A stretch of DNA of 64,000 nucleotides from Oscillatoriales cyanobacterium (GTDB taxonomy: Bacteria > Cyanobacteriota > Cyanobacteriia > CACIAM-69d): assembly GCA_004292515.1 (NCBI GenBank), contig RDXB01000034.1, positions 1 to 64,000 on the forward strand, in the 5' to 3' direction. The stretch's first letter is position 1, and each line of letters begins with the position of its first letter. A program made the position numbers and the translations under genes. The notes below the pieces were generated by a model. The model was not told the DNA's origin. It did not search any database and saw only the letters and a list, made by a program, of their open reading frames with translations. Shown one piece after another: positions 52,514 to 55,116 of this stretch.

Positions 52514-53119
52514 CTAGGCCGGAAAGGCCTTGCGCACCATCAAACAGTTGCGCCCACCATAGCGCCGGTAGCGCACCCGCTGGGACAACTGCTCCATAAA
52601 CATCAAGCCTCGCCCCGATTCCTTTTCCAGGGGATTGCGATGCTCTTGGCGCAAGGCGGCCAACTTGGCATCCCAGTCAAAGGGATCGCCACAGTCCCAA
52701 ATCTCAATCACCAAGCAACGACCCGATCGCCCCACTTCCACGACGATCGGGGTTTGGGGCGGCCGGTGGCGATGGGCATGGCGTGCCGCATTGGTAAAGC
52801 CTTCCGTGAGAATCAACTGACATTCCCACAGAAACTGCGGCGGCAACCGCTCTGGAATCACCTGTTGCAGCCGCCGGTCAAACCACTGCAACAGATCGGG
52901 TAGTTCTTGCAGATCAGTTGTCAGCTTAAGGCGCGATCGGTAGCGCACCGGTCGCCACTGGTTATCGTTTTGGCGATCCAACCAATGACGCAAGCGCAAC
53001 CAAATGGCCAAGAGCAGGTGTCTCAGGCGAGACCCCATCTTGCCCCGAAGCAACGACGTTAGCGGCGAGCGCGATGCGGGTCGTCGCGCCGCGATCGAAC
53101 CTTTAGGACGAGCGCCCAT
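52514..53119 (-). CDS. RsbW/SpoIIAB-like anti-sigma kinase (HATPase_c_2)
   Basis: The 201-residue protein has a GHKL ATPase domain of the anti-sigma factor/serine kinase type from about residue 60. The N-box ILTEGFTNAARHAH gives catalytic Glu106 and Mg-binding Asn110, the G1 box is WDCGDPFD (141-148), and the G2 box is SGRGLMFMEQ (168-177). Such kinases phosphorylate a STAS partner and may sequester a target. The Arg-rich N-terminal about 55 residues are unusual (an internal start at Met28 is possible). It lies 13 bp downstream of the STAS-sugar transferase gene on the same strand, so the STAS domain next door is the likely partner (inference). Confidence 0.88.
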   Translation of the reverse strand: MGARPKGSIAARRPASRSPLTSLLRGKMGSRLRHLLLAIWLRLRHWLDRQNDNQWRPVRYRSRLKLTTDLQELPDLLQWFDRRLQQVIPERLPPQFLWECQLILTEGFTNAARHAHRHRPPQTPIVVEVGRSGRCLVIEIWDCGDPFDWDAKLAALRQEHRNPLEKESGRGLMFMEQLSQRVRYRRYGGRNCLMVRKAFPA

Positions 53120-53132
53120 GCAATCTGCCTAG

Positions 53133-54158
53133 TTACATTGCACCGCTATTGCGGGAGAACAACACAGCGACGGTCTTGAAGATTAGCTTCAGATCGTGTT
53201 TTAGGCTCCAGTTTTCCTGGTAGTCCAAATCTAGGCGAATCACGTCCTCAAACTTCTTGACCTGCGATCGGCCGTTCACTTGCCACTCGCCGGTCATGCC
53301 GGGACGCACATCCAACCGCTGCCACTGGGGCACTTCATAGCGCTCCACCTCATCAGGCGTGGGCGGACGAGTGCCCACCAAGCTCATGTCACCCCGCAAC
53401 ACGTTCCAAAACTGTGGAAACTCATCCAGGCTGGTTTTGCGCAAGAACCGGCCAACCCGCGTGATGCGGGGATCATTGTCGTTCTTGAAGAATGCCCCCT
53501 CTGCTTGATTCTTCACTTGGTGACGACGCGCTTCCGCATCAGGCACCATCGATCGAAACTTCCACAGCCGGAAGCGCTTACCCATCCATCCACAGCGCAC
53601 CTGGCTAAACAGGATCGGCCCCGGGCTATCCAAACGAATGATGATCGCCAGCGGGATAAACATGACTCCCAAAATAGTTAGCCCGATCAGCGCACCGGCA
53701 ATGTCCAAACTGCGTTTGATCCAAGATCGCACGGATGGATGGGTTGCTGGCGGCAGAACGTCTTCTTTTCTGGAGTTACTGTCGGTTGTGGTCAGGGCGG
53801 CCGAAGACTCGATCGAGAGCATCGCATCCAACCCCGTCATCGACAGCACCGCCATCACGGGTGGTTGCACGGCTCGCAACACAAAACTGACCCCCGTGGC
53901 ATGGGCTAGCTTGTAGCTATTCACCAGCGCCCCAATCCCGCTACTGTCCACAAAGGCCGTTTGGCTAAAATCCAGTGTGATTTGCACGGGCAGCGGATCG
54001 GCTTCGCACAGGGTCTTACAGGTTTCCTTAAAGTCAACCGCTTCCAAAACTGACAAGCGCTCAGGGATGTGGACGATGGTTTCAGTGGTTCCGGCCACGG
54101 TCGAAACACCAAGATTAGCAGGCTGCGAAGTCATAGAACTTTGCGAATTAATCGACAA
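53133..54158 (-). CDS. STAS domain fused to a bacterial sugar transferase
   Basis: A 341-residue fusion. Residues about 25-120 form a STAS (anti-sigma antagonist) domain with [20 protein letters not shown]; the DSSG at 71-74 keeps the phosphorylatable Ser. A linker leads to a bacterial sugar transferase domain. The latter has [20 protein letters not shown] (148-167, membrane hairpin), [22 protein letters not shown] and [20 protein letters not shown] with VGTRPP (241-265, catalytic Asp-Glu), then [14 protein letters not shown]. Such enzymes load the first sugar phosphate onto undecaprenyl phosphate to start exopolysaccharide units. The domain joining suggests direct control by partner switching with the RsbW-like product downstream. 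Confidence 0.92.
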
Positions 54159-54704
54159 TTAGCAGTTAACCGGAAGCAAAAGACAGTTGGCCAGCGCGCT
54201 CTGGCACCCCGTAAGCAACAACATCTCGGGCGGGCGATCGAAAACCGGTAGCCTCTTGAGGACTGGCCAAGGGCGATCGCAGCGGTCGGGCCAGCAGCTA
54301 CCGAACAATCGCAGGCGTAAAAATCCAGAATCTTAGCGGGTTCTTCTGTGCGATCGCTGATCAAACGACGAGCGACCAAACGGCAAGCGATCGCAGTAAC
54401 GATCACAGCACAGAGCGATCGGTTGCTCGCTCTACGATAGTTGCTCCATTCATGTATAACCCATCCACTTTGCTGAATTTTCCAAGAAATATAGACTTAT
54501 CCCCAGCTAGAAGATGTTTCCCGAGATCGTGCCCAAAATCCTGCCCAAAATCCTGCCCAAGATTGTGATTGTGTTTCAGGAAAGCACCCTAGATCTGCCC
54601 TAAAGCTGCCCTAAATCGATCCCAAACTGATCCTAAAGCGATCCTAAATCGAGGCTTTGAAGTCATAGGACTGGTCGCCATTGGTGGAAATCCAGACGAA
54701 ATGG

Positions 54705-54983
54705 TTAATTGTGGTTAGTCTCTGATCGGTTGATTCTCTGGCGATGACGATTGGGGTCAAGGAAATCAACCGTTTCGGCTTGGCTGGCGACCCAGGTGGT
54801 GACGACGTTGCCACAGGCGATCAGGTGGACGCAAAATCCGTTGCCGCCGGTAGTGTTGGTGATTGGCAAAATCCAAGGCGGCCGGGTGCGCCAGACGATC
54901 GCCGATCGGGTAGAGCTGACCGGCAATGAAACCCCCCAAGTCCATCGAAAATCACAACGCCAAGACCGATCGCCCCGCCTCAT
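54705..54983 (-). CDS. Possible small hypothetical protein
   Basis: A 92-codon frame with no recognised motif. The middle part, VSLPVSSTRSAIVWRTRPPW followed by ILPITNTTGGNGFCVHLIAC, is not low-complexity and could be a short real protein or the remnant of a longer gene. No RBS, partner or family similarity is evident, and an opposite-strand frame of similar length overlaps it. Kept only as a candidate. Confidence 0.25.
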   Translation of the reverse strand: MRRGDRSWRCDFRWTWGVSLPVSSTRSAIVWRTRPPWILPITNTTGGNGFCVHLIACGNVVTTWVASQAETVDFLDPNRHRQRINRSETNHN

Positions 54984-55058
54984 CGGGCGATTGTCCCGGC
55001 TATTCAGTCCCTAGGAAGCCCAATTCTGTAACGATTTTGGCAGCAATTTTGCTGCTCT

Positions 55059-55077
55059 ATTAACCTTCTCTTTACCC
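55059..55077 (+). promoter_or_regulatory. Candidate Pho box upstream of pstSCAB
   Basis: ATTAACCT (55,059-55,066) and CTTTACCC (55,070-55,077) are two 8-bp direct repeats with a 3-bp spacer, close to the cyanobacterial Pho box pattern (PyTTAAPyPy repeats bound by the PhoB-like regulator). A weaker third unit may follow at 55,081. It lies about 215 bp before the pstS ATG, so the transcript would have a long leader. Confidence 0.5.
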
Positions 55078-55116
55078 AAGCGGTTTATGCTAGCCGCCGT
55101 TTACTCATGTCAGCAT

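Follow-up and report, generated by a model that had tools for sequence, protein, structure and literature searches.

A STAS-phosphoglycosyl transferase fusion and its neighbouring RsbW-like kinase: a candidate partner switch on polysaccharide initiation in cyanobacteria

The window analysed here, a stretch of 64,000 nucleotides from an Oscillatoriales cyanobacterium, encodes a protein in which a STAS domain is fused to a phosphoglycosyl transferase (PGT), followed by a serine kinase of the RsbW/SpoIIAB kind; the pair is conserved in many cyanobacterial families. It is proposed, with a probability of about 0.62, that partner-switch proteins directly control a priming PGT; in this proposal the phosphorylation, the binding, and the direction of control with its influence on activity are all predictions, as are the sugar and the polymer concerned. 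A built-in switch domain and a neighbouring kinase suggest that the output of a sugar coat may be switched directly at the enzyme.

Domain structure of the fusion and the kinase

The features of the locus are as follows.

53133..54134, minus strand: STAS-PGT fusion, 333 aa, ATG start (ORF, Pfam, start codon of congeners, AF2 pLDDT 81)
53802..54080, minus strand: STAS domain, anti-sigma-factor-antagonist type (PF01740; folds and profiles match TM1442, SpoIIAA and RsbV)
53937..53948, minus strand: DSSG motif, residues 63-66 (D63, S64 and S65 invariant, 58/58 fusions)
53943-53945, minus strand: Ser64, predicted phospho-acceptor, first Ser of DSSG (analogy with SpoIIAA/RsbV)
53712..53744, minus strand: fusion-specific linker beside the re-entrant membrane helix (His132, Ser137, Lys140 and Arg141 invariant, 58/58)
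53157..53717, minus strand: monotopic PGT catalytic domain, Bac_transf (PF02397; fold match to PglC 8g1n and WbaP 8t53)
53421..53426, minus strand: catalytic Asp-Glu dyad D237-E238 (invariant, 58/58 fusions)
52514..53119, minus strand: RsbW/SpoIIAB-like serine kinase, 201 aa (HATPase_c_2 2.7e-21; RsbW 6m36 and SpoIIAB 1til/1th8 by profile and fold)
52790..52804, minus strand: kinase N box, Glu106-Asn110 (both residues invariant in 29 adjacent kinases)

One reading frame exceeds the Pfam cut-off for both STAS (2.7e-13) and Bac_transf (2.3e-66), which bears out the fusion of STAS to a sugar transferase described in an earlier note on this DNA. That note had the gene span 53,133-54,158 from a TTG codon; the N-terminus MTSQP is common to two congeneric genomes, neither of which has the TTG further upstream, and the start is therefore moved to the ATG at 54134. 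As a result the DSSG motif, correctly recognised within the STAS domain, is renumbered from residues 71-74 to 63-66, and the acceptor becomes Ser64 (previously Ser72). The first Ser of DSSG is the phospho-acceptor position in SpoIIAA and RsbV, and by analogy Ser64 is the predicted one in the fusion. Upstream of the fusion, approximately 0.95 kb (54135-55086) lacks a convincing gene and is followed by a divergent phosphate-binding (pst-like) cluster; a promoter and terminator scan gave no more signals than shuffled sequences.

The N-terminal part of the AF2 model matches the folds of TM1442, SpoIIAA and RsbV, and the C-terminal part those of PglC and WbaP; the pTM of 0.60 and linker pLDDT below 50 leave the placement of STAS on the PGT unfixed. 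By profile and fold comparison the STAS domain is nearest to kinase-regulated antagonists; the ant_ant_sig superfamily model falls just below its cut-off (50.1 compared to 53.45 bits). STAS is the sole N-terminal domain found by Pfam, with PF13727 and the transmembrane (TM) bundle of large PGTs of the WbaP/WcaJ type absent; the WbaP, WcaJ and EPS_sugtrans models remain below cut-off and their matches are confined to their C-terminal part. The features of the monotopic PGT superfamily are present, namely the Bac_transf core, the re-entrant helix and the Asp-Glu dyad that is catalytic in these enzymes (PMC10942596); by sequence and fold the fusion is a monotopic PGT, predicted to transfer a sugar-1-phosphate to polyprenyl phosphate. 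The invariant residues listed above were counted in an alignment of 58 fusions, in which the motif THPSVRSW of the linker (53712-53744) is nearly invariant; the motif is missing from the other of the two PGTs in the source genome. Arg136 of the linker is lost mainly in fusions without a kinase, and it is possible, judging from this pattern, that the residue contacts the kinase.

The kinase begins after a gap of 13 bp (53120-53132) from the fusion stop, as the earlier note described for a GHKL kinase, and it is nearest to RsbW/SpoIIAB by profile and AF2 fold; the HATPase_c_2 fold, the N box Glu/Asn, and the DxG and G2 boxes are all present. Glu106 and Asn110, previously noted as intact, are also invariant across the 29 homologues. 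Scores against the narrow equivalog models of RsbW and SpoIIAB fall far short of the cut-off, and thus the kinase is considered to be of the RsbW/SpoIIAB kind with orthology not implied. An amphipathic helix considered at the kinase N-terminus is unsupported, with the share of shuffles scoring as high being 0.049 for the window segment and 0.28 for the congener.

Conservation of the pair and its cassette

Among the matches listed from 292 cyanobacterial genomes, 73 are whole-fusion matches starting in or before STAS, and these come from many families; the STAS-linker part has no match in plasmids. Linkage was sampled in 60 fusion loci, taken with flanks of as much as 7 kb to either side, together with the window (61 in total); a kinase of the window family lies near 29/61 fusions, and the kinase neighbourhood on which the earlier proposal depended is thus kept in relatives across many cyanobacterial families. 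Of the 29 linked kinases 27 are directly downstream on the same strand, the others being convergent (L075) or upstream at approximately 2.5 kb on the other strand (L080). With 80 named loci from among the matches listed added, a set which partly overlaps the first so that the two are not independent samples, 50 of 52 kinase frames are directly downstream, on the same strand and within 0.8 kb, far beyond random placement in genomes of 3-8 Mb; these 50 come from 49 of 141 loci, and many overlap the fusion or lie within 10 bp of it. DSSG counts from the named loci were set aside, as the search pattern itself demanded DSSG.

Named holders of the pair include Oscillatoria PCC 10802, Microcoleus vaginatus HSN003, Tychonema, Planktothrix PCC 11201, Crocosphaera and Laspinema. 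The named loci are cyanobacterial by title bar one, a MAG contig labelled Chloroflexaceae (L130) with a cyanobacterial-looking fusion-kinase pair, which is probably misbinned or else reflects transfer. In one genome of the large family f19 (L263, G175:C30:20300-22000) the same pair is present with STAS and PGT in different frames, owing to a frameshift or a sequencing error. Very often a DUF3318 gene sits immediately upstream of the fusion, whether or not a kinase is present (cluster c1 of 32 loci, among them L037, L039 and L040).

The best 29 kinase-profile matches in the 292 genomes (at least 194 bits) include 28 that adjoin a fusion, in a profile which was built from adjacent kinases and is biased towards fusion-side matches; the remaining match (G070) is from a genome with an unlinked fusion. 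Because of this bias a kinase tree was also built with 40 unlinked relatives, in which the adjacency label needs 5 changes compared to 23.4 in shuffles (0/500 as low). One group, with moderate support (83/92), holds 28 of the 31 adjacent kinases as well as two unlinked ones (G187 and G070), both from genomes carrying a fusion; L038, L083 and L080 are placed uncertainly on long branches. The kinases beside fusions make up nearly a single clade, a lineage dedicated to the fusion.

In the fusion tree 21 rows without an adjacent kinase form one fully supported, Nostocales-like clade; the root is uncertain, but as kinase-bearing rows surround the clade, its lack of the kinase is most simply read as a single loss. 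Arg136 of the linker is not invariant in this clade. DSS is equally invariant in this clade and in the other fusions, and so its conservation alone does not point to the neighbouring kinase; this is the main point against treating DSS conservation as proof of neighbour control. The genomes of the kinase-less group retain more distant RsbW-type kinases, which could replace the missing neighbour.

A SpoIIE-type PP2C phosphatase is close to the fusion in ten related loci, where kinase, STAS substrate and PP2C are linked as an RsbUVW-type gene set; in five it has a PAS or GAF-PAS region and stands in line after the kinase (L115, L117, L183, L185, L082), and in five it is a receiver-PP2C near the fusion (L074, L077, L078, L081, L080). 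Stand-alone STAS genes with DSSG are present in L074, L080 and L082. The PP2C is unlinked in the source genome, in agreement with the earlier statement that the window lacks a phosphatase. The source genome has six SpoIIE matches, and all ten cassette phosphatases have the same best match there, a receiver-PP2C (C46:139472-140065) that is 50-55% identical to the receiver-form cassette PP2Cs over most of its length; it lies outside the window on the same contig as the fusion, approximately 85 kb off, and adjoins a second, different RsbW-type kinase (G000:C46:139472-141299; loci L002, L099). From these matches it is likely that this receiver-PP2C serves the fusion in the source genome.

Proposed control of the transferase and competing readings

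The kinase would phosphorylate Ser64 in the STAS domain of the membrane-bound monotopic PGT, and a PP2C phosphatase with a sensor or receiver domain would take the phosphate off. Depending on whether the STAS domain is free, bound to the kinase or phosphorylated, the PGT would transfer more or less sugar-1-phosphate to undecaprenyl phosphate, and the amount of polysaccharide started would vary accordingly. The unphosphorylated form may be the active one, a guess by analogy with SypA and HmpV. The direct post-translational control put forward in the earlier note is favoured by the conserved linkage, the dedicated kinase lineage and the ten PP2C loci, and is weakened by the half of the sampled fusions that have no kinase close by, and by the 21-fusion clade which keeps DSS without the kinase. 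A wider version is tentative and rather less probable than the proposal itself: a phylum-wide kinase/PP2C/STAS-PGT switch in which Ser phosphorylation would gate the first committed step of polysaccharide synthesis, PAS, GAF or receiver inputs would act on the phosphatase, and the Nostocales-like enzyme would have been released from its own kinase and come under a different RsbW-type kinase, which may be specific to a cell type.

The fusion probably starts a surface polysaccharide; this link comes from the enzyme class, from glycosyltransferases beside the fusions of relatives (Alg14-like, GT28-like (C-terminal) and group 1), and from all4160 of Anabaena, which is described as a glycosyltransferase bearing a STAS domain at its N-terminus and counted among the genes required for heterocyst envelope polysaccharide (PMC8256260, PMC4390870). 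Within the window no further gene next to the pair could be recognised as a polysaccharide gene, so that the operon of the earlier note amounts to two genes.

Control in the reverse direction is unlikely; here the fusion would be a membrane-bound antagonist which captures the kinase as an anti-sigma factor; the condition of the PGT, through substrate supply or the membrane, would then govern either a stand-alone STAS protein or a sigma factor, and the output would be transcription. Kinases of this family take sigma factors as well as STAS proteins as binding partners, several cassettes hold soluble STAS proteins, and the source genome encodes four STAS proteins that stand alone, along with four strong kinases of the RsbW type; however, the recurring neighbour families examined beside fusions include no sigma factor gene, and the genes found linked are the enzyme and, among relatives, glycosyltransferases. 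Somewhat less probable again is a passive STAS scaffold for dimerization or localization, replacing the N-terminal regions of large PGTs, with a kinase that acts on other STAS proteins and owes its position to history. Retention of the fusion and DSS without the kinase in the 21-member clade would fit such a scaffold, as would the STAS protein MlaB, which regulates a membrane enzyme, the MlaF ABC transporter, without known phosphorylation (PMC7367683); against it stand the kinase lineage that is dedicated to the fusion and accompanies it, the PP2C genes of the same cassettes and the invariant Ser-Ser. That two unrelated genes are neighbours by chance, as might be supposed from just two genes with no other window neighbour recognised as a pathway member, is already refuted by linkage kept in many families.

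Significance and comparison with known systems

Direct control of a priming PGT by a partner switch would bear on the largely open question of how bacteria limit the flow of scarce undecaprenyl phosphate into polysaccharide pathways. It also matters for cyanobacterial mats and aggregation, for heterocyst envelopes and for the production of biopolymers. HmpV and SypA belong to partner switches whose targets are a standing puzzle; a STAS-PGT that comes with a kinase and a phosphatase of its own points to a definite enzyme as target, and three proteins suffice to test it. The bare STAS-glycosyltransferase fusion (all4160) and PGT control by a phosphorylated regulator (EpsW/EpsZ) are already known. 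No report of the fusion-kinase(-phosphatase) cassette was found in the literature searched, which was mostly without subscription papers.

All4160 of Anabaena PCC 7120 (Wang et al. 2007, as cited in PMC8256260), likened to the fusion by description, also carries an N-terminal STAS domain on a glycosyltransferase; the passages seen of papers citing it do not mention kinase control, and Nostocales fusions mostly lack an adjacent kinase. SpoIIAA/SpoIIAB and RsbV/RsbW of B. subtilis share both partner folds, the DSSG motif and the N box with the pair, and a PP2C in the fuller loci; here, in contrast, the antagonist is fused to an enzyme and no linked sigma factor is seen among the recurring neighbour families examined. 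HmpU/HmpV/HmpW of Nostoc punctiforme is likewise a cyanobacterial phosphatase/STAS/kinase switch with STAS as its output, acting on hormogonium motility and polysaccharide (Riley 2018, as cited in PMC8256260 and PMC6495340); HmpV is a stand-alone STAS protein with an unknown target, unlike the fused domain. Phosphorylation of the STAS protein SypA (SypA/SypE, Vibrio fischeri) also controls a polysaccharide-dependent biofilm, however SypA too is stand-alone with its target unknown; the unphosphorylated forms of SypA and HmpV are described as active.

Large or bifunctional monotopic PGTs such as WbaP (PMC10942596) share the catalytic core and likewise carry an accessory domain at the N-terminus, and the fusion has STAS where their TM bundle and DUF stand. 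That a phosphorylated regulator can control an initiating PGT is a recent finding from Myxococcus xanthus, where EpsW~P activates the initiating monotopic PGT EpsZ post-translationally (PMC12802240); the same paper cites CapM, a small PGT that is phosphorylated on Tyr. EpsW is a response regulator that acts in trans on a large PGT, whereas in the cyanobacterial pair the STAS domain is part of the enzyme itself and its partner is a serine kinase.
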